Program-made: the position numbers and the translations under genes
Notes under the pieces: model-generated
The model's database searches: none
What the model was told of the DNA's origin: nothing
What the model saw: only the letters and a program-made list of their open reading frames with translations
Shown: piece by piece, positions 3,132-62,079 of the stretch
Position numbering within the stretch: position 1 is the first letter of the stretch
Layout of the letters: every line of letters begins with the position of its first letter
Assembly (NCBI RefSeq): GCF_020386975.1
Contig: NZ_JABFNK010000005.1
Location: forward strand, 62,001 to 126,000
Direction: 5' to 3'
DNA from: Thermococcus bergensis
GTDB lineage: Archaea; Methanobacteriota_B; Thermococci; Thermococcales; Thermococcaceae
DNA: 64,000 bases

Positions 3132-3150
3132 TGGTTGATTGGTGGTTGTT

Positions 3151-27343: not shown

Positions 27344-27682
27344 AGGGGCGATTTTTCCTCTAAACTCCTCAAAGAGTAATTAGAAGGCCCGAATCTTATA
27401 AACTTTTCTTCAAAGGGTCAATAAAACTCCCCTCAGAAAGCTCGAATTCGAGCCCTTGAGAGAAACCTTGAAACTCAACCACACTTGAAACTCCTCCTTT
27501 TTGTCAATGCTCAAGAATGTTCATGAGACTTCCAGAGGCGAAATAGGAGCTTAAATCAAAAATAAGCTCACAAAAACGCCTTAAACTAAAAATGGTTAAA
27601 TTTCCATGAGGAGAGGATACCAAAGAAGTCCTAAAAAGTCTTTGTTTAGAATTTCGAAAAAATTTCGTTATAAACTTTTAAA
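27344..27682 (-). promoter_or_regulatory. CRISPR leader, cut at its upstream side by IS982 copy 3
   Basis: An AT-rich non-coding stretch of about 340 bases directly beside the terminal repeat. A TATA box (TTTATAAG on the minus strand, 27395-27402) lies 52 bases before the first repeat, placing the transcript start near 27370. IS982 is inserted at 27683. The sequence beyond the IS (from 28615) is also AT-rich and could be the rest of the leader. Promoter and leader-proximal sequence look intact, so transcription and adaptation may still work. Confidence 0.75.
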
Positions 27683-34651: not shown

Positions 34652-34696
34652 CTTTTTCCTCTATTTTTTCCCAGAAGTTTTAAAAATATTAAGTTA

Positions 34697-35627: not shown

Positions 35628-35669
35628 TTAAGTTACAATAATTCTGTAGGAATATTCGGGGGTGAACTC

Positions 35670-44528: not shown

Positions 44529-46214
44529 ATGAGAGAATTTTTGGAAGAAGCCGAAGTCTTTAATGCGGAAAATGTTCTGGAGTACATTTCTGAAATTGCT
44601 AAGTTCCACAGGATACAGGGCTCTAAAGAGCTTGTTGAAGCGGCTAAATATATACTAGAAGAGCTTAGGGTGAACGGCATAAAAGCAGGGCTCTTTGAGG
44701 ATGTTTACGACGGAGAAAGGTGGCATTTAACGTTGGTTTCCCCTATTGCGTGGGATCTTATACATGGGGAAGTTGAGATTGTGGGGAAGAGAATAACAAC
44801 CTCCAAGACGCCCCTTCTCGTAATGGCACATTCTCCACCTGGAAAAGCCGAGGGGGAAGTTGTTGCAATAGAGAGGGAAGAAGACTGGGAAAACGCAAAG
44901 GGCAAGATTGTCATGGTGGGCGAGAAGTGGCATGAAAACTACAAAAAAGCAAATGAAAAAGGGGCCCTTGCGTTTATAGCCTACAGAAAAGGAACAGGCA
45001 AAGCATTTCCTTACATTGGGCTGTTTTTAGCCAAGAACGACTTGGAATGGGCAAAAATCCCTGCAGTTGCCCTAAGCGATGAGCTTGCAAACACCGTTAT
45101 AGGGAAACTAAAGAAATGTGAAAAAGTAACGGCAAAAATCAAGGTTGAAACGCTAATTTCAGACAGCCAGGCACTTCCGATTGTTTATGCGACGGTGGGG
45201 AAACCTCCCTATGTTCTTTTTGTAGCCCATATATGCCACCCTAGACCGGGTGCAAATGACAACGCAAGCGGAGCAGCGATGCTGATTGAGCTGGCTAAGG
45301 TGCTCAATAATCTCTACAACGATTCGTTCCGCTTTGGCTTCGCTTTTCTTTGGATTCCGGAGCATTATGGAACGCAGGCGTTTATAGAGAAATATACAAA
45401 GCTCGATGATTACTACGTGGCAATAAACCTTGACATGGTTGGGGGAAGTGAAGACAGAGCCAACTCAACGATAATGATAATTAGAACTCCGTTATCGAGG
45501 TTTTCAATTGTTTCTGGGATTCTGGAGTACTACCTCAACCTTGCAAACTCTGGTGGAGAGAGCTTTGGAGGGAGTCCCCTGCCAAAATTGAAGATCAGAA
45601 GCTATCCCTACGAGCTCGGAAGCGATCATGATGTGTTCAACTTCTTTGGGATTCCAAGCGTGATGCCCATAACTTGGCCTGACAGGTTCTATCACTCAAG
45701 TGAGGACAGTGTAGAGAAAATCAGCAAAGAAAGCCTTGAAATAATAGGAAAAGCGGTACTTGCTACTGCTTTAGCCCTAGCAAAAGCAAAGAAAGAAGAG
45801 CTTGAGAGATTCGCCAGAGGTTTTACAATGAAGTACCTTGGAGAGCTTAGCATTGAGAGAGACCTTGAAGTGGCTGAAAAGCTCGTGATGCTTGGACTAT
45901 CGAGGGATTCTGAGTTCTTGGGGCTAAACATAGGGCACAAATTTACCTTTGAGCCCTGGCTGAAGTGGAATAAAAAAGGCATTATTTATCCAAGATCGGT
46001 AAAGCAGATTGACGAAAAGAAGGGGGAGGAGCTGGGAAAAATATTGGAAGATAGGAAAATGGGTGTTTTGCTCCATGAGCTATTAATGCTGGGGGAGATA
46101 ATGCCAAAAGAAGAGGCATTCAAAGCTCTGGAAGAGGAGTACGGGAAGTTCGAGAAAGAAAAGCTTGAGAAAGCGGTTGGGATATTAAGGTCTTTAGATA
46201 TTATCGTTTTTTAG
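44529..46214 (+). CDS. M28-family aminopeptidase (DUF4910-like)
   Basis: A 561-residue zinc peptidase. After an N-terminal region with a PA-like insert (TTSKTPLLVMAHSPPG to KGALAFIAYRKGTG), the M28 metal ligands are visible: His and Asp in FVAHICHPRPGANDNASGAAM, Glu in WIPEHYGTQ, Asp in INLDMVGG, and His in LGSDHDVFNF. The C-terminal 130 residues resemble the winged-helix tail seen in DUF4910 proteins (GKILEDRKMGVLLHELLML). It probably trims peptides in the cytoplasm; there is no signal peptide. Start at 44529 follows TTGGTG; a longer TTG start is at 44517. Confidence 0.85.
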   Translation: MREFLEEAEVFNAENVLEYISEIAKFHRIQGSKELVEAAKYILEELRVNGIKAGLFEDVYDGERWHLTLVSPIAWDLIHGEVEIVGKRITTSKTPLLVMAHSPPGKAEGEVVAIEREEDWENAKGKIVMVGEKWHENYKKANEKGALAFIAYRKGTGKAFPYIGLFLAKNDLEWAKIPAVALSDELANTVIGKLKKCEKVTAKIKVETLISDSQALPIVYATVGKPPYVLFVAHICHPRPGANDNASGAAMLIELAKVLNNLYNDSFRFGFAFLWIPEHYGTQAFIEKYTKLDDYYVAINLDMVGGSEDRANSTIMIIRTPLSRFSIVSGILEYYLNLANSGGESFGGSPLPKLKIRSYPYELGSDHDVFNFFGIPSVMPITWPDRFYHSSEDSVEKISKESLEIIGKAVLATALALAKAKKEELERFARGFTMKYLGELSIERDLEVAEKLVMLGLSRDSEFLGLNIGHKFTFEPWLKWNKKGIIYPRSVKQIDEKKGEELGKILEDRKMGVLLHELLMLGEIMPKEEAFKALEEEYGKFEKEKLEKAVGILRSLDIIVF

Positions 46215-46526
46215 TTCTTTCTCAATTTCATTTATCTTTTTGACAACATTTTCCTTAAGTTTTGCCAGAAGCTCAGAAGGTGAGACTGCAGAATAAACAT
46301 AGCCAAGCCAGCCTCTTTGAATGAGCTCCCTCTTGAGAACTCCCCTCTTGTACAGGTTGAGGACGTGTTCCCTAACACTTCTCTCGCTTATTCCAAGCTC
46401 TTCTTTTATTTCAGTTATCCTCATAGGGGCTTTCTTTTCCAAGAGCAAGCGGTATATTCTAAGTTCGTTTTTCTTGAACCCCAATGTTCTCAAGAGGCCC
46501 TCAAGCTTATCGTACACGTCCCCCAT
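46194..46526 (-). CDS. Winged-helix transcriptional regulator, TrmB-like
   Basis: A 110-residue protein with a helix-turn-helix (LLEKKAPMRITEIKEELGISERSVREHVLNLYKRGVLKRE) preceded by a short helix (YDKLEGLLRTLGFKKNELRIYR), the N-terminal pattern of TrmB-like regulators. The sugar-binding C-terminal domain of true TrmB is missing. Start at 46526 follows AGGTGTGAG; the ATG at 46559 is upstream of that site. Its end overlaps the 3' end of the convergent aminopeptidase gene by 21 bases. Confidence 0.75.
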   Translation of the reverse strand: MGDVYDKLEGLLRTLGFKKNELRIYRLLLEKKAPMRITEIKEELGISERSVREHVLNLYKRGVLKRELIQRGWLGYVYSAVSPSELLAKLKENVVKKINEIEKELKNDNI

Positions 46527-46564
46527 CTTTCTCTCACACCTATGAATATTTAACTTCATAGGTT

Positions 46565-47221
46565 TTAAGCCTTACGGTTTAGCTCAACTTTGCCAATATA
46601 GGTTCCGTCTCCAAGAAAAGCCTCTCCTGATGAAGACTCTTTCAAAAATGGGATCATTTTTATCCCCTCTCTCACGTCGAACCCTTCTATGTAGGGATTT
46701 ACCGTGGGCAAAATTAGAAAATCTTCAACTTTAAAGAAGCATTTTACTTTTCTAATGTTTCCTCCAATCCTCAAGCTGAGTGCAGGATGGATGTGTCCTA
46801 GAAAAGCTTTCTCAAACTCAACTTCCGGAAGGTTCTGGTGTCCATGGAGGAAAAGCATATCATCGAGGAGAAAATGACTGACGACATTTACATTTCTGAA
46901 TTCCTTTGTGACTTCTTCTATTTTCCCATCGTGGTTTCCCTTTGTTATGACAATGCTGTACTCTGCAATCTCAGAAAAGAATTCCATAAGGAGCTTTTTG
47001 ACAAATCTACTCATTCCGAGGGGTTCTTTTATGTCACCTAAGATAATCACCAGATCTGGATCTTTCTCTTTTATAAACTCCGCAAGACTTTTTTCGAATT
47101 TTGTTCTTATCCTTAACCCCCTCGAAAGTTCAAAAGCTATGTGGGGATCTGCAAGAACGAGGGTTCTTCCGGAAGATGTTTTAAGTTCAAGGGAAAGCTC
47201 CTCGTAAAGAAAATTTTCCAT
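46565..47221 (-). CDS. Metallophosphoesterase
   Basis: A 218-residue calcineurin-like phosphoesterase. The metal-binding motifs are in order: VLADPHIAFEL (Asp, His), ILGDIKEPLG (Asp), VITKGNHDGKIEE (Asn-His), LFLHGHQ and LGHIHPAL (His). It resembles the archaeal/bacterial group often next to Lhr helicases, whose substrates are unsettled (nucleic acid ends or cyclic nucleotides). Here no helicase neighbour is present. Start at 47221; the ATG at 47230 is possible. It ends 39 bases upstream of the HTH gene start on the same strand. Confidence 0.85.
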   Translation of the reverse strand: MENFLYEELSLELKTSSGRTLVLADPHIAFELSRGLRIRTKFEKSLAEFIKEKDPDLVIILGDIKEPLGMSRFVKKLLMEFFSEIAEYSIVITKGNHDGKIEEVTKEFRNVNVVSHFLLDDMLFLHGHQNLPEVEFEKAFLGHIHPALSLRIGGNIRKVKCFFKVEDFLILPTVNPYIEGFDVREGIKMIPFLKESSSGEAFLGDGTYIGKVELNRKA

Positions 47222-47258
47222 GATAATCACGTAAAAGAGATATAAAGATTGAAGAAAA

Positions 47259-47372
47259 TCAGATTATTCCTCTCTCCTTCTTTCTCTGCCTCTTTAGTCT
47301 CCTAATCCTCTTTTTAATCCACTTCCACCTCATTCTTCCCTTCTTTTTCCATTTCCTTGGTCTCCTCTTCAT
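47259..47372 (-). CDS. rpl41e: Large ribosomal subunit protein eL41
   Basis: A 37-residue protein, overwhelmingly Arg, Lys and Trp: [20 protein letters not shown] then [17 protein letters not shown]. This is the archaeal form of eL41, the smallest ribosomal protein, a single basic helix. A GGGGTGATG ribosome binding site precedes ATG 47372 (ATG 47378 is also in frame). Genes this short are often missed. It stands alone, upstream of the metallophosphoesterase. Confidence 0.92.
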
Positions 47373-47771
47373 GATCATCACCCCGATAATCGTTCCAGAC
47401 TAAGCTCACTTTGCTTGGTTTTTAAGCTTTTCCATCAAAAGGGATTAGAAAATAGCAAAGACAAAAAGAACAAAATAAAGGAGATTAAAGGAAAATCTGG
47501 TCAAGCAGAGCTTTGTCTTTAGTTGAAACTATATAAATGGTTTCTAAACTTTTATATTGAGTTAAAGACTAAGAAAAAGCCTCTTGGTGAGATTGTGATA
47601 TTTGAATAGGGGATTTATGGCTTTAGAGTAATTCTAGTAATTTTGGGCTTTTTAAAACTCTCAAAAATTGTGTAATTTTAATTTTCTCTTTCTATAGCTC
47701 TTGGCTTGGACAAAAATGTGCTCGATAAGTTATTAACCATTGAACTCCTAACTGTTGAGGAGGGAGGGGTA
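47373..47771. other. AT-rich intergenic region
   Basis: About 400 bases without a convincing gene. Two TATA-like strings, ACTATATAAATGG (about 47528) and CTTTTATATTG (about 47549), and several A/T runs are present. A frame open from 47706 into the nitrilase gene is probably leader. I see no structured RNA or tRNA. Confidence 0.5.
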
Positions 47772-48566
47772 ATGAAAGTTGGGTTTGTTCAGATGGAACC
47801 AAAGCTTTTGGATCTTAATGCCAACCTCAGCAAAGCTGAGAAATTAATTGGAGAGGCTGCAAAGCAAGGTGCAAAGCTCATTGTTCTTCCAGAGCTTTTT
47901 GACACGGGCTACAATTTTGAGACAAAAGAGGAAGTGGCAGAGATAGCTCAGCAGATTCCAGATGGTGAGACAACTCAATTTCTTGTCGAGCAGGCGAGAG
48001 AGCATGAAGTATTCACAGTGGCTGGAACCGCTGAGAAGGATGAGAGGGGGAAACTTTACAACTCCGCTGTCATTGTAGGGCCAATAGGATGGGGCTACAT
48101 TGGAAAATACCGCAAGATTCACCTTTTCTACAGGGAAAAACTTTTCTTCGAGCCGGGAAACCTTGGCTTTCATGTCTTCAACATAGGCATTGCAAAGGTC
48201 GGGATTATGATATGCTTTGACTGGTTTTTCCCAGAGTCGATGAGAACACTCGCCCTTAAGGGAGCAGATATCGTTGCACATCCGGCCAATCTGGTTCTCC
48301 CCTATGCTCCGAGGGCAATGCCAATAAGGAGCCTTGAGAACAGGGTGTTTAGCATAACAGCGAACAGAATTGGGGAGGAGAGGGGGCTAAAGTTCATAGG
48401 CATGAGCCAGATAAACTCACCAAAGGCTGAAATCCTGCTCAGGGCAAGCGAAGATAAGGAGGAAGTTGGAATTGTGGAAATAAACGTGGAAGACGCAAGG
48501 AACAAGAAACTCAATGAATTTAACGACATATTCAAGGATAGGAGACCGGAACACTATGTCCTGTAA
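47772..48566 (+). CDS. Nitrilase-superfamily amidohydrolase
   Basis: A 264-residue carbon-nitrogen hydrolase. The catalytic triad is visible as Glu in LIVLPELFDTGYNF (about residue 42), Lys in KYRKIHLFYREK (about 113) and Cys in VGIMICFDWFFPES (about 146). Length and sequence fit the thermoactive Pyrococcus abyssi nitrilase, which hydrolyses aliphatic dinitriles in vitro; the natural substrate may be an omega-amide. Start at 47772 follows GGAGGGAGGGG; an in-frame upstream GTG/TTG near 47706 would add 22 unlikely residues. A foreign island begins just downstream. Confidence 0.9.
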   Translation: MKVGFVQMEPKLLDLNANLSKAEKLIGEAAKQGAKLIVLPELFDTGYNFETKEEVAEIAQQIPDGETTQFLVEQAREHEVFTVAGTAEKDERGKLYNSAVIVGPIGWGYIGKYRKIHLFYREKLFFEPGNLGFHVFNIGIAKVGIMICFDWFFPESMRTLALKGADIVAHPANLVLPYAPRAMPIRSLENRVFSITANRIGEERGLKFIGMSQINSPKAEILLRASEDKEEVGIVEINVEDARNKKLNEFNDIFKDRRPEHYVL

Positions 48567-48665
48567 CTTGGAAAAGAACCGGGAGAGCTTTAAAAAGGGA
48601 TAAAAATACTTGAGGAAATAGATAAAAAGGGGAACGCCTAGATAAAAGCGGAATGATGAGTCTTA

Positions 48666-48841
48666 ATTCCACTCCCTCCATTAGAAGAACAAAAGAAAAT
48701 AGCCCAGATTTTCATGACCATTGATAATAAGATTGAGGCTGAAATGAAGATAAAAGAAGAGCTTGAGAAATTCAAGCATGGTACGATGGACAAACTTCTC
48801 ACTGGAAAGGTGAGGGTTAAGGTGGGTGAGGAAAGTGGATA
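48666..48841 (+). pseudogene. C-terminal fragment of a type I restriction specificity subunit (HsdS)
   Basis: The frame reads PLPPLEEQKKIAQIFMTID, then NKIEAEMKIKEELEKFKHGTM and DKLLTGKVRV with a stop at 48839-48841. The LPPLEEQKKIA motif and the final LLTGKVRV are hallmarks of the second conserved helix region of HsdS, which recognises DNA for type I restriction-modification. Only about 57 residues remain; the rest was lost to the left. The last bases overlap the start of the DUF262 gene, showing they once formed an operon. Confidence 0.85.
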
Positions 48842-50691
48842 AGCTTGACCCAAAGATGGAGAATTTGCTTGAGATATTGAAACAGGCTGAAGATGGGAAA
48901 TTAGTCCTTCCTCAGTTCCAAAGAGACTTTGTGTGGTCTAGGCAGGATATTAAAGACTTGTTGGTCTCACTCCTCAATGGTTACTTTGTGGGCACCTTCC
49001 TCTTCCTTAGAACAGAGTCAACCAACCCTCCATTCAAATGGAGACCAATTCAGGGTGTCAGTTTGCCAGTTGATAGAGATGGTAACTATATTGCAGAACC
49101 AGAGGCCATGATTCTTGATGGCCAGCAGAGGATAACATCACTTCACTATGTGTTCTATGCACCACCAAAAGAGGTTGTCACCCCAAAGTACACCAGCAAG
49201 AGATATCTCTTCTTCTTGAGGCTTGAAGAATTGGAAAGGGGTAATGTTGAAGATGCTGTGTTCAGTGTGGTTGAAGATGATGCCAGGAAGTACCTGGACA
49301 AAAACCATCAGTTTGAGCATAAAATAGTCCCATTCACAGAGCTCTCTAACAAAGAAAAGTGGAAAGATTGGCTAGAGGGGTTTGTAGAGTACCATGTTGA
49401 CAAATATATAGAGGAAAACATTGGTGAAGAAGTTAGCTATAAACAGGGCAGAGAACTCACCCAAGAGTACAAGAGACAACTTAAGGCAAAGTCAGACCTC
49501 TGGGAGAAGTACATTAACAATCTCCTAGAGTTCAAGGTTCCAGTCTTATACTTGCCAAAAATTGAACCAGACAATAAACAGAAACTTAGTGAAGTCTGCA
49601 CAATATTTGAGAAGATGAACAGCACTGGAGTCAAGTTATCAGTCTTTGACCTCTTGACTGCCAGACTGTATAAGGATGACATTGACCTTCACAAAATATG
49701 GCAGGACACTGTTGACTCATTTGAAAACATCAGAAAGTTGTCTGAGGACAACCCAGACCTCTTTAAGGTGTTGCTACTCAGGGCACTGGGCCTTATGAGG
49801 GTGCTTAGGGACAAGGATAAGGACAAGGGTGAGAAGGAGATTAGTGATGTCAAAAACAGGTCTTTAATTAATCTGTCACCAATTGGTTTTGAGAATGATT
49901 GGTGGACTATGGCAGAATACTTTGACAAGGCCATTGAAAGAGTCATGAGTACTAACCAAGATGGGTTTGGAGCATTCCTGCCAAAGTGGGTTCCTTACAA
50001 ACCCATGCTCCCAGTTTTGGCAACACTCCTATATTATGTGGAGGGTACCAGAGAATTATCACCAATAGAAAAGAGCAGGGCTTACACACTGATAAAGCAG
50101 TGGTATTGGAGTTCAGTATTCACTGAGAGGTACAGCAGTGCTGTTGACTCAAAGTCCCTAAGTGACACCTTGGAGCTAATAAAAGCTTTCAAAAAGCCTG
50201 AAGATACCCCATCAATGATTGATGAGGCAAGGGCTAGGGTTACCTCACTAAACTTATACACAGTCTCAAGAAGTGGAAGTGCAATTTATAGAGGTATTAT
50301 GAACTTAATTGCATTGAACCAGGCAAGGGACTTTCTCAAAGGTGATGCCATAGAATTCCATAATTTAGAAGACCACCATATATTCCCTCAGGCTTTCCTA
50401 AGGAGGCAGGGTTTTGGGGACAAGGACAAATACAAGATTAATACCATACTTAATAGAACACTGATTTCTGATGAAACCAACAGGAAGATTTCAGCAACAT
50501 CACCAAAAGAGTACCTTAAGTGGATTCCTGGTGATTTGGAAAAAGTTCTCAAGCCCCACTTTATTGACTCTGAGTGTATTGATGCAATGAGAGAAAATAA
50601 TTATGAGAAGTTCTTAGAGAGGAGGAGAGAACTTATTATAAACAAAGTGCTGGAACTCATTGGTGGGGGAGAAGAGGATGTCAACTCCTGA
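48826..50691 (+). CDS. DUF262/DUF1524 protein, GmrSD-like (type IV restriction-type)
   Basis: A 621-residue protein. N-terminal DUF262 motifs VLPQFQRDFVWSRQDIKDLL and MILDGQQRITSLHY form the NTP-binding/hydrolysing ParB-like domain; the C-terminal part has an HNH-type core, LEDHHIFPQAFLRR and INTILNRTLISDETNRKI, like DUF1524. This architecture matches single-chain GmrSD enzymes that restrict modified phage DNA, and the related proteins embedded in defence islands. GTG 48826 overlaps the HsdS remnant; GTG 48835 is an alternative start. The gene appears intact although its neighbours are broken, and it contains no CpG dinucleotide at all. Confidence 0.85.
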   Translation: MRKVDKLDPKMENLLEILKQAEDGKLVLPQFQRDFVWSRQDIKDLLVSLLNGYFVGTFLFLRTESTNPPFKWRPIQGVSLPVDRDGNYIAEPEAMILDGQQRITSLHYVFYAPPKEVVTPKYTSKRYLFFLRLEELERGNVEDAVFSVVEDDARKYLDKNHQFEHKIVPFTELSNKEKWKDWLEGFVEYHVDKYIEENIGEEVSYKQGRELTQEYKRQLKAKSDLWEKYINNLLEFKVPVLYLPKIEPDNKQKLSEVCTIFEKMNSTGVKLSVFDLLTARLYKDDIDLHKIWQDTVDSFENIRKLSEDNPDLFKVLLLRALGLMRVLRDKDKDKGEKEISDVKNRSLINLSPIGFENDWWTMAEYFDKAIERVMSTNQDGFGAFLPKWVPYKPMLPVLATLLYYVEGTRELSPIEKSRAYTLIKQWYWSSVFTERYSSAVDSKSLSDTLELIKAFKKPEDTPSMIDEARARVTSLNLYTVSRSGSAIYRGIMNLIALNQARDFLKGDAIEFHNLEDHHIFPQAFLRRQGFGDKDKYKINTILNRTLISDETNRKISATSPKEYLKWIPGDLEKVLKPHFIDSECIDAMRENNYEKFLERRRELIINKVLELIGGGEEDVNS

Positions 50692-51028
50692 AGAGAGGGT
50701 ATCTGAGTACCCCTTTATCAATATCCTGTCCAAGGAACTTGGCTGGGATTATGTGCCTCCTTCAGAATTAAAGAAGGAGAGAGACTATAACTCAGCTCTT
50801 CTTAAAGACAGGCTAATGAGGGCCCTCCTCAGGATAAATGCTGAGAAAATAACTGAAGAAGATGCAAAGCAGATAATTAAGAAGCTGGAATACCTCCCCC
50901 ACACTATAAAAGGAACTATTGACAAGTATAGACTGGAGAATATCAAAAACTATAAGAGTCTCCTTAAGTTTTTAATGAACTTTCTGAGACCTCAAAACAA
51001 TCATCATTGTTGGAAAGCATTGAGTTGA
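50678..51028 (+). pseudogene. N-terminal fragment of a type I restriction subunit (HsdR)
   Basis: ATG 50678 overlaps the stop of the DUF262 gene (coupled). The protein begins STPEERVSEYPFINILSKEL, GWDYVPPSELKKERDY and LLKDRLMRALLRINAEKITEEDAKQIIKKL, typical of the start of HsdR, the motor-nuclease subunit of about 1,000 residues. Only about 105 residues remain before the frame is lost. In the next frame 51002-51129 reads LLESIELKREEFLRQGLLED and ends at PPEW with a stop, probably a piece of another subunit. The alaS-derived DNA begins at about 51140. Confidence 0.8.
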
Positions 51029-51189
51029 AAAGGGAAGAGTTTCTGAGACAAGGACTTTTAGAAGATAAGTTTAAGAGTGGTGATGAAAAACCCACTGGTG
51101 GGATGATGAGTCTGGAGCCCCCTGAGTGGTGAGGAGGTTTCGCGGGGCTGACTCCTGAAATCGTTAAGGAAGTAGCTGAAAAAGAAGGC

Positions 51190-52500
51190 ATGAAGGTCAA
51201 GGTCCCAGATAACTTTTACAGCTTAATTGCCAAAGAAGCTGAAAAGACTGCCAAAAAGGAAGAAGAAAAAAGTATAGTGGACTTTGAGCTGGTTCAAGAC
51301 CTGCCTGATACAAGAACCCTCTATTATGAGGATCCCTTCATGAAGGAATTCGATGCAAGGGTTCTTAGGGTGATAGATGACTGGGTGGTTTTGGATCAGA
51401 CAGCGTTTTATCCCGAGGGCGGAGGTCAGCCGTGTGATTTGGGCGAGCTCAACGGAATTAAAGTGCTCGATGTCCAGAAAGTTGGCAAAGTAATTCTCCA
51501 TAAGGTGGAGAAGCCTGAGGCTTTCAAAGAAGGTGACAGCGTTCACGGAAAAATTGACTGGGAGAGGAGAATACAGCACATGAGACACCACACCGGTACT
51601 CACGTCCTTATGGGGGCTCTCGTAAGGGTTCTCGGAAAACACGTCTGGCAGGCGGGTTCTCAATTAAGCGCCGACTGGGCTAGATTAGATATAGCTCACT
51701 ACAAGCGCATCAGCGAAGAGGAGCTTAAGGAGATAGAGCTCTTAGCAAATAGGGTTGTGATGGAAGATAGAGAGGTAAAATGGGAATGGTTGCCGAGAAC
51801 TGAGGCAGAGCAAAAGTATGGTTTTAGGCTTTACCAGGGTGGAGTTGTGCCGGGGAGGATAATTAGAATTTTGAACATTAAAGACTGGGATGTTCAAGCC
51901 TGTGGAGGTACCCACTTGCCTAGAACAGGTTTGATAGGCCCAATAAAAATACTCAGGACGGAAAGAATACAGGATGGGGTTGAGAGAATCATATTTACAT
52001 GTGGCGAGGCAACCATCAAGGAATGGCAGAAGGAAAGGGAGATATTAAGCAGAACAAGTGAAGTATTTAGAGTACCTCCAGAGAAGCTGCCAGAAACTGC
52101 GGAGAAGTTCTTCGAAGAGTGGAAGCAGGCGAGAAAAGAAGTTGAAAGGCTTAACAAGGAGCTTGCAAAGCTTTTAATCTATGAGCTCGAGAGTAAAGTA
52201 GAGAAGGTAGGGGACGTTGAGTTCATTGGAGCAGTGGTTGAAGGAGAGATAGAACACTTAAGGGAAGCGGCTCTAAAGCTTAAGAGACCAAACAGGGTTG
52301 TTGCATTGATAAGTGAAGACAGCAAAGCCGTTGTGATCAGCGTTGGTGATGAACTGCCACACAAAGCCGGCGATTTGGTAAAGACAATCACGAAGATTGC
52401 GGGTGGAGGCGGCGGAGGTAAGAAAGACCTTGCCCAAGGAAAGATAAAGAACGTCCTAAAGGCTAAGGAAGCTCTAGAGGAGCTCAAAAAGGCTCTCTAA
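51190..52500 (+). CDS. Partial duplicate of alanyl-tRNA synthetase: freestanding editing and C-Ala domains
   Basis: Corresponds to the C-terminal half of the full AlaRS at 58858-61587. The catalytic domain is absent. The editing domain is complete, with its zinc ligands in RHHTGTHVL and CGGTHL, followed by the C-Ala region with the glycine-rich [13 protein letters not shown]. This makes it the same architecture as AlaX-L, a trans-editing protein that removes Ser or Gly from tRNA-Ala. The frame is open from about 51130; ATG 51190 after GAAGG is the first good start. There are no frameshifts or stops over 436 residues, suggesting selection, but a promoter has not been identified. It may be a nascent trans-editing factor or a not yet decayed fragment. 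Confidence 0.85.
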
Positions 52501-52526
52501 TCTTTTAAATTTTTGGAGGGTTTGGG

Positions 52527-52892
52527 ATTAGAATAAGAGCTCTCACTGAAGAATTAAGCAGAACTGCTGAAGAAATGGGTTTTAAAGCCCTTAAGGAGTT
52601 CTCCACGAAGGATAACGCGAGAATAGACCTGGCGATTTTAAAAGGGCATGAAAAAATTCTGGCAATTGAGTTTGAGAACTCCTACAAATGGATAAAGCAG
52701 AGGATCCTCTACAATGGGATAAAGGCTAAGCGAGCTGGCTTTAAACACCTCTGGGTGGTTTACCCCTTTAGGAACGATCCTTTAAGAAACGGCTGGGTGA
52801 ATGATTATTTCAGAGAGCTTGGAGTAGAAGTGGAGGTTATCTCTCCGGAAAACATTGGAGAAAAGTTTAGGGAGTTTTTGAATTCAATTTAG
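52527..52892 (+). CDS. PD-(D/E)XK-like small protein, copy 1
   Basis: Found after both alaS copies. ATG 52575 gives 105 residues, but the 16 codons before it (IRIRALTEELSRTAEE) are also open, conserved in both copies, look like a helix, and are preceded by GGAGGG spaced 6 bases from an in-frame ATT at 52527, so an unusual ATT start is possible. NARIDLAILKGHEKILAIEFENSYKW has the Asp-Xn-Glu-x-Glu pattern of a PD-(D/E)XK nuclease core. No named family is recognised. It begins 26 bases after the alaS-like gene. Confidence 0.6.
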   Translation: MRIRALTEELSRTAEEMGFKALKEFSTKDNARIDLAILKGHEKILAIEFENSYKWIKQRILYNGIKAKRAGFKHLWVVYPFRNDPLRNGWVNDYFRELGVEVEVISPENIGEKFREFLNSI

Positions 52893-53083
52893 GATTTTTA
52901 CCTGACAGTTGCTATTTTCTGAAGTGTTTTGGATGCAGATTTAAGCGATTAAGGTATTTTGAGTTTTTACTTTGTTTTGTTGTTTTTTGTTTTTACTTTT
53001 GTCTTTTCGTTTTTTCTAATGGCAAATTTTATATAGTTTGAGGACTTATTATTTGTGAAGATTTCCTCATGCTTGGGGGGCGA
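52893..53083. other. AT-rich intergenic region with T-runs
   Basis: About 190 bases, very T-rich (GTTTTGTTGTTTTTTGTTTT) between 52970 and 53030, which may act as an archaeal terminator for the upstream genes. A TATA-like TTTTATATAG at about 53028-53037 could serve the next gene. Confidence 0.45.
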
Positions 53084-53341
53084 ATGAAGAGAATTGCACT
53101 TGCAAGTTTGTTCGTCTTGGTTTTAGTTTTGGGAATGGTTGCAAGGAGTGCAGTCAGTCAAGCAGAGCAAACAAAAGCCCTTCCAAACTGCACAAGTTGC
53201 AAAACGTGTGGCAAATCTTTGTCTGCTATCCTCCAAGAGGTAAACTCTTGGGAAAAGCGAAATGTGGACATCTCCAAGTATAGTGACATCAAGGAGCTTA
53301 TTAAAGTAGCCCAGGAACAGGGATATAGTTTGACGGGATAA
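53084..53341 (+). CDS. Small secreted protein with CxxCxxC motif
   Basis: An 85-residue protein with a signal peptide (RIALASLFVLVLVLGMVARSAVSQA) and a mature part carrying NCTSCKTCGKSLSAILQE. The three cysteines spaced by two suggest a metal or iron-sulfur site, or a disulfide-redox function outside the membrane. No family is recognised. ATG 53084 is chosen as it starts the signal peptide; 53069 is in frame. The next gene follows 20 bases later and the small membrane genes after it probably form one operon. Confidence 0.65.
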   Translation: MKRIALASLFVLVLVLGMVARSAVSQAEQTKALPNCTSCKTCGKSLSAILQEVNSWEKRNVDISKYSDIKELIKVAQEQGYSLTG

Positions 53342-53361
53342 GCTAAGGAGGGGAATACCTA

Positions 53362-53883
53362 ATGAAGACAGCTTATATGTATTTTTCTCTTCCTTTTCTT
53401 GTGATTGGAATTGGAGTACTTAACATTCTCGTGCCCTTCAAGGAGTTGAATTACTTAACGTTGTTCGCTCTTGTAACCCTCATTCTCCTCCGTACAGTTC
53501 TCCCAAACAGGCTCGAAAACAGGATTATAACTTTCGCGTGGCATTTTGGGATAATATTCACAATAGGCTCGCTTATTTTCCCCTACAACAAACACCTTGC
53601 GTACTCTTACTTTGCCGGCGCTGGCGTGGCTGCAACATTCTATGCTTTCGGCGACAAACTCTTTTACTACGCCCCCCAAATAACTTACGCCTGGATTGGC
53701 CTTGCAGCGGGCTTTTTGCTTTCATTAACAGTCTTTAGGGATGAAGTTCAAAGGAATAATGGATTGTTCTTCATTCTCACATTAGGGCTCAGCTTTACAA
53801 CACTCCTCATTGGGAAACTCCTTAATTACAAACCATTCTCTGATAGAGTACCAGCCATAATAGAAAAGATTAGGGAGGAATGA
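53362..53883 (+). CDS. Hypothetical membrane protein with five or six helices
   Basis: A 173-residue protein that is hydrophobic throughout: YFSLPFLVIGIGVLNILVP, LTLFALVTLILLRTVLP, FAWHFGIIFTIGSLIF, YFAGAGVAATFYAF, YAWIGLAAGFLLSLTVF and GLFFILTLGLSFTTLLIG. No domain is recognised. Preceded by GGAGGGG. It lies between the small CxxCxxC secreted protein and two more small membrane genes; the four are probably an operon of unknown purpose. Confidence 0.65.
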   Translation: MKTAYMYFSLPFLVIGIGVLNILVPFKELNYLTLFALVTLILLRTVLPNRLENRIITFAWHFGIIFTIGSLIFPYNKHLAYSYFAGAGVAATFYAFGDKLFYYAPQITYAWIGLAAGFLLSLTVFRDEVQRNNGLFFILTLGLSFTTLLIGKLLNYKPFSDRVPAIIEKIREE

Positions 53884-53885
53884 GC

Positions 53886-54053
53886 ATGGACGAGATCGTT
53901 AAACAAGAAATTGGACGGTCAGTACCCTTTTATTTTATTCTCTTTGTTATAGGGGCTAGAGCATGGCAGGCCGGAAAATTAGACATGCCCGCTTACATGG
54001 TCTTTGTCATAACATTCATAATAATCATGCTAACAAGTCTGATATTTCCATAA
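53886..54053 (+). CDS. Small membrane protein (55 residues)
   Basis: ATG 53886 overlaps closely with the previous stop (53881-53883) and follows AGGGAGGAATG. The protein has two hydrophobic segments (PFYFILFVIGARAW and YMVFVITFIIIMLTSLIF). It is too short for many gene finders. It may belong with the following gene, whose frame it overlaps. Confidence 0.55.
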   Translation: MDEIVKQEIGRSVPFYFILFVIGARAWQAGKLDMPAYMVFVITFIIIMLTSLIFP

Positions 54054-54334
54054 TTTTTGCTTCCATTTTTGGAGTTCTTTTGGGTGGGGTGGCATTAGTA
54101 ACTGGATATGCTAAGTATCCCTTCGTAATATTGTACTTTATGCTCGTTTTGATGTTATTGCCTGTGATTTTAAAGAAAAACCTGCCTATCAGCACGGCTG
54201 GAATTCTTTTGAGCATCCCCTTGGCTTATTTTGCAGTTGAAAGCATCAAAGGCCTCAACGTATCGACGTTATTTTTAGTGGCATTTGAACTTGGCCTAAT
54301 TGGTATGTACATTGAAATGATCTGGAGAAGATAG
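53963..54334 (+). CDS. Hypothetical membrane protein, start uncertain
   Basis: The frame is open from ATG 53963, but the first 27 residues are a shadow of the preceding gene and have a random look. The rest has four hydrophobic segments (ISIIFASIFGVLLGGVALVTG, FVILYFMLVLMLLPVIL, ISTAGILLSIPLAYF, LFLVAFELGLIGMYIE). There is no ATG, GTG or TTG between 53966 and 54050 in frame, so either the long form is right, the start is unusual, or a frameshift joins this to the 55-residue protein to make one membrane protein of about 150 residues. Confidence 0.5.
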   Translation: MAGRKIRHARLHGLCHNIHNNHANKSDISIIFASIFGVLLGGVALVTGYAKYPFVILYFMLVLMLLPVILKKNLPISTAGILLSIPLAYFAVESIKGLNVSTLFLVAFELGLIGMYIEMIWRR

Positions 54335-54423
54335 ACACCTTAGTACACTGACTTATACATTTGAGAAGCCCGGATAGCAAAATTTTGTTTGTGATCTTCC
54401 ATTAATTTTGGCAGAAAAAGCTT

Positions 54424-54578
54424 TCAGTTCACAACTATCTTAATCTCTCTTATTTCCCTCTCTTCTTTCTCGAATTTCTCAAATGTAAACTTTTCCCAGT
54501 TAACCCTATAGGGAGAGCCGTTGAAATTGGCAATCCAGTCATTATGGTCTAAAATTATCATTATGAGGCGTTCTTTGG
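54424..54578 (-). pseudogene. C-terminal gene fragment, unknown family
   Basis: On the minus strand an open stretch ends at 54424: TKERLIMIILDHNDWIANF, NGSPYRVNWEKFTFEKFEKE, then EREIREIKIVVN. The composition looks like real protein but I do not recognise it. It lacks a start and is cut at its 5' side by the IS605-like remnant at 54580. Confidence 0.4.
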
Positions 54579-54579
54579 T

Positions 54580-54630
54580 GTTGACTTTTCTTTTTCAAGC
54601 CTCGTCCCTTCAGGGCGGGGAGGAGGTCAG
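54580..54630 (+). repeat. Solo right end of an IS605/TnpB-type element
   Basis: TTGACTTTTCTTTTTCAAGC leads into CCTCGTCCCTTCAGGGCGGG and AGGAGG, a GC-rich hairpin standing out from AT-rich DNA. Archaeal TnpB elements end in this kind of hairpin, which is also the 3' part of the guide RNA. No tnpB is next to it. The GGAGGAGGTC at its end now acts as the ribosome binding site for the gene at 54635. Confidence 0.5.
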
Positions 54631-54634
54631 CGCA

Positions 54635-55090
54635 ATGATAAAAAGAATACTATGCAAAGATCTCTATGAAGAAATAGAACGGCTTGAGCGCTCTGTCATA
54701 GAGCTTGAGGAGCAGATAATTGAGTTAAAGACCCAGCTCAACATGAAGACCGAAGAGGCGACGAGCCTCTATATCGAGAACCAAAGCCTGAGACACAAAC
54801 TTGAAGTTCGGGAGCATGGAGCTACTCGGGGCTCTTCACCGGTGGATTTCTTCATGGGAGAAACTAGAGATGAGAAGGGAGAGAGTTCCCCTGAAGCTCA
54901 TTCGTCGGAAATCTTCAACCTTACCACCCCGAACGATTCTGTAGTTGCCCCGACAGTTGAACGCCTTATAAGTGCTCAAATATCCTACGGGAAAGTACTC
55001 TATATCATCGAAACGGCGAGTAAAGTTGGACTCCTCGTAGTTGGATTCTCGATATTCCTGGTCATGATTTCTTCTTTGGTGGTGAAGTGA
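54635..55090 (+). CDS. Coiled-coil protein with C-terminal membrane anchor
   Basis: A 151-residue protein. Residues about 8-62 form a coiled coil (LYEEIERLERSVIELEEQII), followed by a polar linker and a C-terminal membrane helix (VGLLVVGFSIFLVMISSLVV). Start at 54635 follows GGAGGAGG. It is one base before the SipW-type secreted protein gene, so it belongs to the signal peptidase operon. A tether or assembly factor for surface fibres is a guess. Confidence 0.6.
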   Translation: MIKRILCKDLYEEIERLERSVIELEEQIIELKTQLNMKTEEATSLYIENQSLRHKLEVREHGATRGSSPVDFFMGETRDEKGESSPEAHSSEIFNLTTPNDSVVAPTVERLISAQISYGKVLYIIETASKVGLLVVGFSIFLVMISSLVVK

Positions 55091-55091
55091 A

Positions 55092-55676
55092 ATGAGGAAG
55101 CCCCTTCTTGTCTTGTTTCTTGTGATTGTCTTTTTGGCCTATTTCTCACGAGCTTCATTCTCTTACTTTTCTGACACCGAGAGTGTAACAATCAAACTAG
55201 TAGCCCCCGTGGAGTCCCCTTCCAGTGTTACCGTTCTCTACGAGAACGCAATGCTAACCTTTTTCTGTCACCTTCCCTGTTGTGATCAAAATGAGGAGAG
55301 CTCGGAGATAAGCGAGGTAGTGAGGGTGGTTAAAGAGAGCGAGAACAGCTCGGAGGGCCTTGAACAAGCCCCCGAATGCTTCAAAGAAATATGCAGTAGG
55401 GCTGTTCTATCGGGTATTTACATAAAGAGTGAGGACACCGTACTCCTTGAAAACATTACGGTGAAGTGGTGGGGTGAGGGAAGGCTTAATTGCATTAAAG
55501 TTGATAGCCTAACGTTCGAGGTAAATTCCACAGCCCCGGCCGAGGTTGAACTCGGTGTGACACTGGAGGATGGGCTACACTCTCTGGACTTCGGCTTTGA
55601 ATCCCTTACTTTACCTGCATTTGAAATAACCTTTACCTTCAGCGACCATGTGGAGACTATATACTTTATACCCTAG
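55092..55676 (+). CDS. SipW/TasA-type secreted protein, last residues replaced by IS982
   Basis: A 194-residue protein with a signal peptide followed by SFSYFSDTESVTIKLVAP, the SipW-cognate signal found in TasA/camelysin-type fibre subunits. The mature part is beta-rich with a Cys cluster (FCHLPCCDQNEE) and N-glycosylation sequons. IS982 copy 5 inserted at the 3' end and its terminal CCCTAG supplies the stop. Without the IS the gene would end IPCIEFKWV, so only the last seven residues are missing. It is probably processed by the signal peptidase at 56640. Confidence 0.7.
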   Translation: MRKPLLVLFLVIVFLAYFSRASFSYFSDTESVTIKLVAPVESPSSVTVLYENAMLTFFCHLPCCDQNEESSEISEVVRVVKESENSSEGLEQAPECFKEICSRAVLSGIYIKSEDTVLLENITVKWWGEGRLNCIKVDSLTFEVNSTAPAEVELGVTLEDGLHSLDFGFESLTLPAFEITFTFSDHVETIYFIP

Positions 55677-56600
55677 TTCCCACCACCTGTGAAGTTGTAT
55701 AATCTGTCCAGATTCACGGCCAGAATCGCCCCTAAAATCCTGACAGCTAACCCCCTCAAACTAACACTCCTGCTCGGCCTCAGAAGAAACTCAGAAAACT
55801 TCGAAAACAAAGTCTCAATCCTCCTGCGAAAGTCAGACAAGTACTTGTAAAACTTCTTCTCCTCCAGATTACTAACCTGATTCTCCCGCTTCACCGGCGT
55901 GTAAACAACGCCAAACTTCAGGAATTCCTCCTGAAGTTCTCTACTAACGTAACCCTTATCCAAAAACAGAAAACAGCCAGAAAACTCCTCAACAATCACC
56001 CAGAACTTTTCCCTGACAACACTCACATCATGCTTATTCGCCGGATCAACGGACAGCAAAGCCAGCAAATTTCCATCAGAGTAACAGGTCAGCTTGTACC
56101 CATAGTAAAACTTTTTTTAGAGGGAACAAACCCAACTGCGGGCTTTTCAGAGATGACTTCTGAAGAACCCTCCTTATCCTTCCTGTTTTTTCTGGCCAAC
56201 TCCTTGGTCTGAATGGGCTTTGAGTCCAGTATTCTAACGTATTCTCTGGCGTGTTTTTTGAATAATTCTTCCTGCGCTAGGAGCAGGAGTTTTTCGTGCC
56301 TGTTCAAGCGTTCTGTTAGTTTGTTGTACCTGATTTTGGGGAACAGCTTCATTTCTTCGATTAGGACTCTGTAAGCGTGCTTGTAAACTCCGTTAAAGTG
56401 CAAGTGTGCTAGTATTGCGAAGGTTATTAGGTCGTAGAGGCTGATTATTTCCCTGTGAGTGTTTTTCGGGTAGTGTTTGCTGATTATCGGATAGATTTCG
56501 GATTTTATGATCAGGATTTCCTGCTGAAAGTTCATAACAACCACCAATCAACCAAAAGACTTAAGTGCTTATAACTCTAACGATCTAATGGGAACTAGGG
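55671..56600 (-). mobile_element. IS982-type element, copy 5
   Basis: 930 bp in minus orientation. Left ACCCTAGTTCCCA at 55671, right TGGGAACTAGGG to 56600. An 8-bp target duplication TACTTTAT lies at 55663-55670 and 56601-56608. It separates the secreted protein gene from the signal peptidase gene and probably breaks their cotranscription. Confidence 0.93.
55673..56535 (-). CDS. IS982-family transposase, copy 5, joined by a -1 frameshift
   Basis: First frame ATG 56535 to a stop at 56089; second frame ends at 55673. A7 run in coding orientation at 56112-56118. The protein is identical or nearly so to copy 2, so these two probably share a recent source. Confidence 0.88.
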
Positions 56601-56639
56601 TACTTTATACCTTGCATTGAATTCAAGTGGGTGTAGTAG

Positions 56640-57569
56640 ATGAGGGTAAAATATCTTGTGTTGCTCGTCCTCCTTCTTCCAGTCTTCTTGTTGTTGCCCT
56701 ATTCTGGAAATCTTGAGCTCCTAGTAGTTTTAAGCGGAAGCATGCAGCCTCTTTTCAACCCAGGCGATGTGATAGTTGTAGAGAGGGTGAACGCGAGTTC
56801 CATAGCTGTGGGTGACGTTGTGGCATTCCGTCCGCCAGATGCTAAGGACGAAAAGATCCTTGTCACACACCGAGTTGTGGAAATCCTTGTGAATGAGAGC
56901 GGAAGATATTTCCAGACGAGAGGAGACAACAATGAAGACGTCGACCCCTTCTTAGTACCTGCAGAGAATGTGGTTGGCAAAGCTATTTTTTCGATACCTT
57001 ATCTTGGCTACCTTACGAGACACAACCACAGCAGGACAGCTAGACTTCTTGTTTACATATTCCTGATCTTTATTCCCGGGGTTATGCTGATATATGGGGA
57101 GATATACTACTTAATGCACTACTCTCCGCGGATAGAAAGGATGAAAGAGAAAGATAAGCGCCGGAGGGCGAGGACTGTGGATGTTGTATTCTTTAAACGA
57201 GTTCTTGGAATCTTTCTTGTTATTTTCACAGTCACCACGGTCCTTTTTCACCCTCTCTTGGAAGAAGACAATAATGGAATTACCAACAAAGGGTTCCTTC
57301 CGGTTCTGGTCCTCAGGAACGATGTTCCCAATTACTCTTATCTTTCTCCTGGAGAAATCTATGGGGGAAATTACGAAGTTGCGGTTAACGCAGCTCTCCC
57401 GGTAATGTGGATTGTCCGTGCCTACGAGATCAATCCTTTTATAGTTAAATCGCTAAATGTTATATTATCTTTGCTGTTAACTCTGATCATGTTTCCTCTC
57501 TGGGTAAAAGAGTTTCCGAACGTAAAAAATCGACGCAGGAGGCGACATCATGGAACTCTGGGAATATAA
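56640..57569 (+). CDS. Signal peptidase I, archaeal/SEC11 type, with extended membrane C-terminus
   Basis: A 309-residue membrane protease. The nucleophile is Ser34 in VVLSGSMQPLFNPGDVIVVE, followed by LVTHRVVEI with the SEC11-type His in place of Lys, and RGDNNEDVDPFLVP. Beyond the usual 150 residues it has three more membrane helices and an extracytoplasmic segment, as in SipW-associated enzymes. It lies between the SipW-type secreted protein and a DUF5305 gene, so it likely processes that protein rather than general cargo. ATG 56640 is preceded by a TAGTAG stop pair; the ribosome binding site is weak. Confidence 0.85.
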   Translation: MRVKYLVLLVLLLPVFLLLPYSGNLELLVVLSGSMQPLFNPGDVIVVERVNASSIAVGDVVAFRPPDAKDEKILVTHRVVEILVNESGRYFQTRGDNNEDVDPFLVPAENVVGKAIFSIPYLGYLTRHNHSRTARLLVYIFLIFIPGVMLIYGEIYYLMHYSPRIERMKEKDKRRRARTVDVVFFKRVLGIFLVIFTVTTVLFHPLLEEDNNGITNKGFLPVLVLRNDVPNYSYLSPGEIYGGNYEVAVNAALPVMWIVRAYEINPFIVKSLNVILSLLLTLIMFPLWVKEFPNVKNRRRRRHHGTLGI

Positions 57570-58584
57570 TCTGCTCTCTAGAGTGAAAAGGGTGTGGGTA
57601 CTCCTTACGGTAATCTTTCTGATTTTATCGGCGGCTTCTGGCTACGGGTATTATACAACTCCTCCTATCCAAGACTCAAAAGTAAAGATCACCAGCACCC
57701 TCTACACGTGGTCTGGGGAGTTGGAGGGTAGGGGTGTTGTTCTAAAGCCGAACCCTCTTTGGGAAGTCGGAAAGAAAGTCGAACTTCCAATTTACCCATT
57801 ATCAATTACCCCACTTGCGGAGGTAGAACTCAAGTTTAACGTCACTGGTAAAGATGTTAGGCTCCAGTTTGAGAGGGACATCAAAGCAGTTTATTATCTT
57901 TCCTACGAGGATAAACGAGTCATAGAAGAAGTCTATAAGGTGATTTCTAACACTTCAGTTGGGAGCTGCTTTTCTGAACATCTTACACTCGACGTTAATG
58001 ATATATTTGACCGGATTGAGGAGGCAAGGAATGTCCTTAGGCTTCCAAGGGAAAAGATAGGCGTTGAAATTATTGGGAAAGTGAGATACTCCGGTACTGT
58101 AGATGGGAAGCCTGTCAAAGGTTCTCAGGAGTTCAAGGGTTCGATAAGCTTTCCCTACGAGGCATTTTACATGATTTCTGGGGAAAACAAAAATGGTACC
58201 GAGACCTTTACTGAGACTACCTCGAAGACCAGCCCGGCAAATCAAAAGAAGCGAACCGTTTTGCTCTCGCTATCTTTGCTCTTTGGGGTACTCGCAGTAG
58301 GGACTGCAATTATTGGTACGAAGTTCAAGCCAAACTTATACGACATTCAAGAGTTGGCCTTTAGAAGAGAACGTAGGAAGCTCTCCAAGTGGATAAGCAG
58401 TGGAAAGTTGCCTACTATCCTCCCTTCAGAGAAGGTGGAGTTGGCAAGTCTTACAGACCTAGTGGAAGCGGCAATAGATATGAATAAGCGCGTGATTTAT
58501 GATTCCGAAGAGCATATCTACTTCTTTCTCAGTGAAGGAGTGCTATATTACTTTAAGGAGAGGAGTATCGGAGAAAAGAAATGA
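57550..58584 (+). CDS. DUF5305 membrane protein
   Basis: A 344-residue protein with an N-terminal helix (VWVLLTVIFLILSAASGYGYY), a large extracytoplasmic beta domain and a second helix (LLSLSLLFGVLAVGTAIIG) before a cytoplasmic tail of about 80 residues. This layout and the context fit DUF5305, which is often next to SipW-type signal peptidases in archaea. It overlaps the signal peptidase gene by 20 bases. Its stop codon lies inside the target duplication of the following MITE-like element. Confidence 0.7.
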   Translation: MELWEYNLLSRVKRVWVLLTVIFLILSAASGYGYYTTPPIQDSKVKITSTLYTWSGELEGRGVVLKPNPLWEVGKKVELPIYPLSITPLAEVELKFNVTGKDVRLQFERDIKAVYYLSYEDKRVIEEVYKVISNTSVGSCFSEHLTLDVNDIFDRIEEARNVLRLPREKIGVEIIGKVRYSGTVDGKPVKGSQEFKGSISFPYEAFYMISGENKNGTETFTETTSKTSPANQKKRTVLLSLSLLFGVLAVGTAIIGTKFKPNLYDIQELAFRRERRKLSKWISSGKLPTILPSEKVELASLTDLVEAAIDMNKRVIYDSEEHIYFFLSEGVLYYFKERSIGEKK

Positions 58585-58589
58585 ACTTC

Positions 58590-58790
58590 GGTACTGTCAG
58601 GATAAATGTGGCATTACCTCCTGGTCAACCAGAAAAATAGGTCGCTTCTCGCGGGATTTCTTTTGCTATTTTTGAATGGCTTCCCAGACGGTTGTGTGGC
58701 TGATTCCGAGGATTCTAGCGGGGGTTGTTTCGGCGGAAAGTCTGGGATTTAAACCTGACGCCACACAGCTTATCCTGTCCTGATGATATC
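58590..58790. mobile_element. MITE-like internally deleted derivative of an IS6-family element, 201 bp
   Basis: Flanked by an exact 8-bp direct repeat TGAACTTC at 58582-58589 and 58791-58798. The left end GGTACTGTCAGGATAA resembles the IS6 terminal repeat GATACTGTTAGGATAA; the right part reads, on the minus strand, AGGATAAGCTGTGTGGCGTC, matching the IS6 left end and subterminal region. In between, the minus strand encodes ARILGISHTTVWEAIQK, the remains of the IS6 transposase helix-turn-helix. There is no intact transposase, so movement would need one in trans. It sits just before alaS. Confidence 0.75.
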
Positions 58791-58857
58791 TGAACTTCAA
58801 ACGAAAGTCTTTTTAGCATCATTGTGGACTAAGGCTAGTAGCAAGAAGGTGATGATC

Positions 58858-61587: not shown

Positions 61588-61613
61588 TCTTTTAAATTTT
61601 TGGAGGGTTTGGG

Positions 61614-61979
61614 ATTAGAATAAGAGCTCTCACTGAAGAATTAAGCAGAACTGCTGAAGAAATGGGTTTTAAAGCCCTTAAGGAGTTCTCCACGAAGGAT
61701 AATGCAAGAATAGATCTGGCTGTTTTGAGAGGAGACGAGGAAATTCTGGCAATTGAATTTGAGAACTCCTACAAATGGATAAAGCAGAGGATCCTCTACA
61801 ATGGGATAAAGGCTCACCGCGCTGGCTTTAAACACCTCTGGGTGGTTTACCCCTTTAGGAACGATCCTTTGAGAAAAAGCTGGGTTGAGGAGTATCTCAA
61901 GGAGCTCGGTGTTGAGGTGGAGATTGTCTCTCCAGAGGGCATTGGGAAAAAGTTCAGGGAGTTTTTGAGTTTGATTTAG
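61614..61979 (+). CDS. PD-(D/E)XK-like small protein, copy 2
   Basis: Paralogue of the gene at 52527, in the same position after alaS. ATG 61662 gives 105 residues; the same 16 codons upstream are open from an ATT at 61614 behind GGAGGG. NARIDLAVLRGDEEILAIEFENSYKW carries the Asp-Xn-Glu-x-Glu pattern. The two proteins differ at scattered positions (for example KGHEK versus RGDEE, GWVNDYFREL versus SWVEEYLKEL), but the first 130 bases after the alaS stop are almost identical, which suggests gene conversion across this stretch. Confidence 0.6.
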   Translation: MRIRALTEELSRTAEEMGFKALKEFSTKDNARIDLAVLRGDEEILAIEFENSYKWIKQRILYNGIKAHRAGFKHLWVVYPFRNDPLRKSWVEEYLKELGVEVEIVSPEGIGKKFREFLSLI

Positions 61980-62079
61980 GTTTTGTGAGAGATTGCTATT
62001 TAGGAAGTTATCCTCGATGGAGCAAGCATTCTTTGATTCGTCCATAAAAAATGCATTATGAAGGGGCGATCGAAGTTGC

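Follow-up and report, generated by a model that had tools for sequence, protein, structure and literature searches.

A segment with a truncated alaS copy inserted exactly behind the sR23 gene of Thermococcus bergensis, with an IS200/IS605 right end at its far edge

Within the 64 000 nt stretch of the Thermococcus bergensis genome analysed here (hereafter, the window) the 3′ half of alaS, the gene for alanyl-tRNA synthetase (AlaRS), is present twice, and the extra copy holds a long ORF. The question raised by this locus is whether that ORF represents a new protein or DNA that was merely carried along by another process. An earlier note, made from the sequence alone, favoured the former, suggesting a live example of how AlaX-type proteins arise from AlaRS. 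Our analysis favours the latter: we propose that the fragment is a truncated, probably non-functional 3′ copy of alaS brought in by IS200/IS605-type single-strand transposition behind the CTGAC of sR23, a reading to which we assign a probability of roughly 0.55.

The truncated copy and the DNA that accompanies it

The features first needed are as follows.
51190–52500, + strand: alaS 3′ fragment ORF, editing domain plus C-Ala (from ORF, BLAST, Pfam, structural relatives and motifs).
51149–52917, + strand: duplicate of 60236–62001 (alaS 3′ half, intergenic DNA, downstream gene), 90.2 % by blastn with mosaic tracts.
52575–52892, + strand: copy of the small gene after alaS (ORF).
52893–54580, + strand: rest of the segment, with ORFs 53069–53341, 53362–53883 and 53963–54334 and DNA matching that downstream of alaS in relatives.
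58783–61587, + strand: intact alaS (934 aa ORF), with a donor-like TTGAC at 60235–60239.

The fragment is open throughout its 436 codons, and its product shares 95 % identity with the C-terminal 436 residues of the intact AlaRS. Pfam returned only the tail of tRNA-synt_2c (profile positions 410–552), followed by tRNA_SAD and DHHA1; the editing domain and C-Ala are thus present at full length, whilst the aminoacylation domain is absent. Both zinc motifs are intact (HTGTH at 51589 and CGGTH at 51901), and the glycine-rich C-Ala segment is visible in the translation. Solved relatives include the AlaRS structure 2zze, a close homologue from Pyrococcus horikoshii, and AlaX-type proteins such as 2e1b. 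The uninterrupted frame, the two zinc motifs, the glycine-rich C-Ala, the missing aminoacylation domain and the resulting AlaX-L layout had all been described in the earlier note, along with an origin by partial duplication of alaS, and on each of these points the translation, Pfam, protein identity and blastn homology bear it out. As to translation signals, an in-frame TGA lies at 51130, inside sR23, and the frame opens downstream of it; the first ATG, at 51190, is 38 nt past the end of the sR23 CTGAC, and by inspection no Shine–Dalgarno-like sequence was seen before it.

The duplication reaches beyond the coding sequence. Using blastn, 51149–52917 aligned with 60236–62001 at 90.2 % identity over 1770 columns, with an E-value that excludes a chance match. 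As the homology runs past the stop codon of the fragment to 52917, spanning an intergenic stretch and the downstream gene, the duplication was not confined to a coding module. This extension, the sR23 gene at the left edge and the in-frame TGA inside it lie outside what the earlier note described. For the copy of that small gene, searches of Pfam and NCBIfam gave no hit. The duplicate forms the left part of a 3478 bp segment that also carries ∼1.7 kb of other DNA. Parts of the segment beyond the downstream gene match DNA found 3′ of alaS in relatives, and 53394–53850 matches a different contig of the relative G002 at 94 %; for the DNA of 53.1–54.58 kb no counterpart was found 3′ of the intact alaS in this genome. 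No match to 51000–55000 was found among the plasmids of the searched collection, and an integrated plasmid was set aside as an explanation.

With regard to the intact gene, relatives align to the ORF from residue 24 and AAGGTGAT precedes ATG 58858/58864; judged from these alignments, the real start is probably near 58858–58864 and the listed start at 58783 too far upstream. The 5′ half of the gene is 86 % identical to the relatives G002 and G004, which are 98 % identical to each other there, as against ∼93 % for the upstream flank (46000–48569) in the corresponding loci (L050 and L051); this suggests that alaS itself has been imported or exchanged. Between the coiled-coil gene that follows the segment and alaS lie ∼4 kb (54814–58850; a signal peptidase gene, a DUF5305 gene and an IS), compared with ∼0.2 kb in G002 and G004. 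The window contains five copies, 94–100 % identical, of a ∼0.93 kb IS that is presumably IS982-like (3132–4020, 18582–19514, 27669–28614, 34680–35628 and 55670–56602); in the last of these the transposase frame is split into two ORFs, and for a flank that includes part of this IS about 40 places are listed in the genome. Additionally, self-blast of the window revealed a CRISPR-like array of a 30 bp repeat with ∼66–67 bp spacing at 25479–27343.

An exact insertion behind sR23 that closes with an IS200/IS605 end

The features that define the insertion are as follows.
51101–51153, + strand: sR23 C/D-box sRNA gene (Rfam RF01138), conserved in 11 relatives.
51153–54630, + strand: inserted segment, 3478 bp, absent from this position in all 11 relatives compared.
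54581–54630, + strand: right boundary, TTGAC (54581–54585) followed by a 45 bp IS200/IS605 left-end/right-end hybrid (54586–54630), guide CAAG, cleavage site GGTCAG.
54631–55090, + strand: ancestral locus resumes with the coiled-coil gene (ATG 54635), directly after sR23 in most relatives compared.

The sR23 gene was recognized by Rfam with 74.2 bits against a gathering threshold of 45, and its D box together with the next base forms CTGAC (51148–51152), the insertion target. In order to reconstruct the empty site we compared 11 of the 12 other genomes of the genus, the contig of the twelfth (G008) not covering it. In all 11, sR23 ends in GGGGCTGAC and is followed directly by CGCAATG or a close variant, the sequence across the empty site being GGGGCTGACCGCAATG or close to it. 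In the window, CTGAC is instead joined to alaS sequence and CGCAATG returns only at 54631; thus, 51153–54630 is an exact 3478 bp insertion, 3′ of CTGAC, with zero bases lost or duplicated relative to the empty site. Likewise, the blastn blocks 51100–51152 and 54631–54813 (or –54805) are contiguous in four retrieved loci (L050, L051, L055 and L057). In relatives, alaS lies downstream of the sR23/coiled-coil gene region. On the other side of sR23, 48826–51028 holds a GmrSD_N (DUF262) gene and then a small ORF whose resemblance to HSDR_N stays under the Pfam cutoff, following a nitrilase-like gene; at this place relatives carry other DNA or none, and G001 keeps 51015–51155 at 88.6 %.

The right edge of the insertion is that of a mobile element. 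The sequence 54607–54630 occurs perfectly eight times in this genome (18 times allowing ≤ 3 mismatches), and five of these occurrences are the right ends of identical 1895 bp IS200/IS605 elements that encode TnpA (NF033573) and TnpB, each with TTAC at its left boundary and GGTCAG at its right end. The window copy is a solo 45 bp hybrid of left end and right end, preceded by TTGAC, with a one-base insertion in its hairpin; in relatives no element is found at the place homologous to 54585, where host sequence continues. The sequence 54607–54630 is identical to the right end of the five intact elements; the right-end hairpin prediction is weak (z − 0.92). At the outer left edge, 51148–51210 folds no better than its shuffles. 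Because the 45 bp scar retains the left guide and lacks the right guide (GAAC), it may no longer be mobile in its present form. TnpA is available in trans only, from the element present in five identical copies (NF033573 hit in L081).

To establish how guides relate to targets, left-end and solo elements in the retrieved loci were tabulated, leaving out guides other than NAAN, hits < 40 nt away from the end of a locus, repeats that share their 60 nt upstream sequence and the window copy itself, whose hairpin insertion blocked the pattern match; the classes AAAA, AAAC, GAAC and GAAG also occurred and were left uncounted. Elements with a CAAG guide, the guide of the window element, followed TGAC in 9 of 14 cases, TTAC in four and neither in one, whilst those with AAAG followed TTAC in 31 of 40, TGAC in none and neither in nine (Fisher 1e-6 on the 9/4 versus 0/31 table). 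Moreover, the TnpB-only elements with CAAG guides (L087 and L088) follow TGAC and the TnpA + TnpB elements with AAAG guides follow TTAC, which is natural covariation of guide and target inside one genome. In the present case CR is TCAG, its guide GR reads GAAC and insertion follows the TGAC of a TGAC/C target (the slash marks the cut); the target in relatives reads CTGAC/C and the matching place in intact alaS TTGAC/C. As TGAC occurs at only 2.4 per kb in the window, its presence at the left break by chance is unlikely, albeit that the motif is just four bases long.

Mosaic divergence and the AlaX reading

Pairwise comparison of the fragment with intact alaS (NG86) gave dN 0.0219, dS 0.4836 and a dN/dS of 0.045, the 451 codons compared containing 99 synonymous and 21 non-synonymous differences. 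These differences are unevenly spread: none of 10 000 codon shuffles produced an identical run as long as the longest one observed, 221 nt. In the identical runs (221, 134, 76 and 137 nt) both copies differ by 8–18 % from the relatives compared, and one run crosses non-coding DNA, where 74 of 74 bases are identical between the copies. On this sequence evidence, the runs point either to a very recent common origin or to conversion between fragment and intact gene. In other tracts the intact gene is 95–97 % identical to G002, whereas the fragment is only 82–86 % identical. The clumping, the shared runs and the lineage-like tracts indicate that both copies are mosaics of recent exchange and of imports from functional genes, and the pairwise dN/dS is therefore uninformative as to the fragment's own function. 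Changes private to the fragment (nine synonymous, eight non-synonymous) fall within the range of intact genes in relatives (8/10 in G004 and 6/13 in G007); as such, private substitutions gave no signal when tried as a test for relaxed selection, those two intact genes looking no better than the fragment. Of the dN/dS comparison suggested in the earlier note, then, the low ratio was obtained and its value as evidence for selection is removed by the mosaicism. Similarly, its alternative of a recent duplication or a selected product holds with respect to recency, or conversion, in the identical runs, whilst the open frame and low dN/dS do not establish selection.

Nevertheless, the fragment might be expressed and kept by selection as a trans-editing protein with the AlaX-L layout, its translation starting on the sR23 transcript or on a transcript from an internal promoter. 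Its open frame, intact zinc motifs, full editing plus C-Ala length and low pairwise dN/dS would all fit, and in the available text of PMC3158927 AlaX-L (AlaXp-L) has precisely this layout, an editing domain and C-Ala without the aminoacylation domain. The fragment shares with it the HxxxH and CxxxH zinc motifs and a DHHA1 domain fused to the editing domain, yet it is 95 % identical to its own AlaRS and only 32 % identical to the genome's own 415 aa AlaX-L-like protein. NCBIfam scores and BLAST identities group it with AlaRS, not AlaX: its best model was archaeal AlaRS (TIGR03683) at 556 bits, below the full-length cutoff of 744.7, compared with 214 bits, below the cutoff of 300, for AlaXM. In the family search, 87 of 94 genomes matched at threshold and a second internal copy occurred in this genome only (the second hit in G076 begins at a contig end), so that looking for the same fragment in related genomes, a check named in the earlier note, came out against the idea. 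Furthermore, the genome already contains AlaX homologues of three sizes (415, 214 and ∼153 aa, the sizes of AlaX-L, -M and -S), no Shine–Dalgarno-like sequence was seen at the ATG at 51190, the dN/dS is confounded by mosaicism and the private changes cannot be distinguished from those of intact genes. As the fragment groups with AlaRS and is confined to one of the 94 family genomes, we did not file it as AlaX-L despite the layout, and we consider this reading very improbable. An AlaX origin, unsupported by families, the family-wide search, start signals or dN/dS, was rejected; the IS200/IS605-type footprint and the extra DNA carried, the single occurrence among 94 genomes and the AlaX homologues already present also speak against the live example proposed earlier. 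The fragment is most likely a non-functional passenger, unremarkable if taken as a protein and instructive for its origin.

Proposed route, rival origins and known systems

Insertion exactly at TGAC, a perfect IS right end at the right edge and the donor TGAC of alaS at the left edge are direct observations, and they follow the cut rules; from these we infer the use of a surrogate left cleavage site. In the proposed route, an economical one in that a single IS200/IS605-type event is enough, TnpA supplied in trans would let the left guide CAAG pair with the TGAC inside alaS rather than with the element-adjacent TGAC, and a cut at the normal right end (TCAG) would then release a circle holding the alaS 3′ part, the downstream gene, further DNA and the element. 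This circle would be inserted directly behind the TGAC in sR23; thereafter the element would have collapsed to the 45 bp hairpin scar. That the frame is still open would be due either to a recent event or to continued exchange of tracts between the copies, and the identical tracts, among them the 74 matching bases of non-coding DNA, speak for recency or conversion. In favour of such a route, two TnpB elements of this genome have CAAG left ends after TGAC. Against it stand the missing hairpin at the outer left edge, the scar that keeps the left guide only, and the DNA of 53.1–54.58 kb, which is missing 3′ of the resident alaS, so the donor arrangement would have to be gone or to have belonged to another strain; moreover, the four-base junction could reflect microhomology joining. 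No second case of capture emerged from this genome, single-copy host DNA being duplicated on the left of none of its three other solo elements (for the L067 flank the sole match was to a high-copy repeat, and for the L071 flank to short dispersed repeats).

Simple vertical partial duplication was set aside in view of the mosaic divergence and of edges that coincide with IS edges. A more elaborate duplication can be drawn, with unequal exchange between IS copies after sR23 and 3′ of alaS producing a tandem repeat, followed by deletion between the TGAC of sR23 and that of alaS. This yields the same two junctions, the right-hand IS becoming the exchange product; however, it takes some four steps and a deletion that ends where it does by coincidence, its intermediate is seen in no relative among the 94 genomes and the missing 53.1–54.58 kb DNA counts against it too, making it clearly improbable. 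We regard as unlikely, on other grounds, a homology-facilitated illegitimate recombination, in which DNA from a related strain (alaS 3′-downstream DNA and IS) recombined on its right side with an IS already present behind sR23, its left side being joined through TGAC microhomology. The two copies do differ by 9.2 % (125/1353), and some of their tracts look like those of other lineages. In the comparison interval that begins at 51947, the fragment reaches 98 % identity with G008, and in those beginning at 52047 and 52147 the intact copy reaches 95–97 % with G002; the downstream gene and the DNA from 52918 onwards are contiguous in G008. Yet two independent events would need to have met precisely at both TGAC and the right end of the IS, and alone they leave the 221, 134, 76 and 137 base identical runs unexplained. 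An assembly artefact joining the alaS regions of two strains, which the estimated contamination of 3.87 % and the mosaic identity might bring to mind, is scarcely credible given that both junctions follow the IS200/IS605 cut rules to the base and lie inside a 1.25 Mb contig.

If transposition of a captured segment is right, this locus is a base-level example of a minimal single-strand transposon duplicating part of an essential gene without its own left end. Tentatively, and at somewhat less than an even chance, we extend this to a general capacity of IS200/IS605 TnpA to capture multi-kilobase host DNA, with the left guide selecting a faraway occurrence of its tetranucleotide to serve as a surrogate left end, in the way that it selects a target. 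‘Peel and paste’ elements would thereby generate truncated gene duplicates and deposit them at the D boxes of C/D sRNAs (CTGAC) and similar sites, and guide-directed capture would be testable by a simple TnpA assay. The locus would also be a caution that a gene fragment may owe its intact frame and low dN/dS to transposition and recombination rather than to new function. Within the literature searches made, we found neither this alaS case nor host-DNA capture via a surrogate left end.

Amongst known systems, IS608 is described in the available text of PMC5934647 as inserting 3′ of TTAC (CL) with guide GL AAAG, CR TCAA and GR GAAT and a preference for C at + 1, rules with which the guide-to-target pattern seen here agrees; the same guide principle appears in the accessible part of PMC6006769. 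The segment resembles an IS200/IS605 product in lying 3′ of a guide-specified tetranucleotide, in the absence of a target duplication and in its right end with a hairpin and a fixed cleavage site. It differs in that 3.4 kb of host DNA has moved, that its outer left edge is without a left-end hairpin and that one 45 bp hybrid hairpin is left. As it behaves like an IS200/IS605 product but is missing the left end, we name it an IS605-like capture rather than an element. In Borrelia plasmids, free-standing IS605 stem loops are linked to duplicated lipoprotein genes, and a role for the loops in duplication is raised as a possibility in the available portion of PMC2775950. Common to that case, as presented there, and to ours is a gene copy that ends at an IS605 stem loop, whereas in the alaS case the empty site, the exact target and a donor site can also be pointed out, and its gene copy is truncated.
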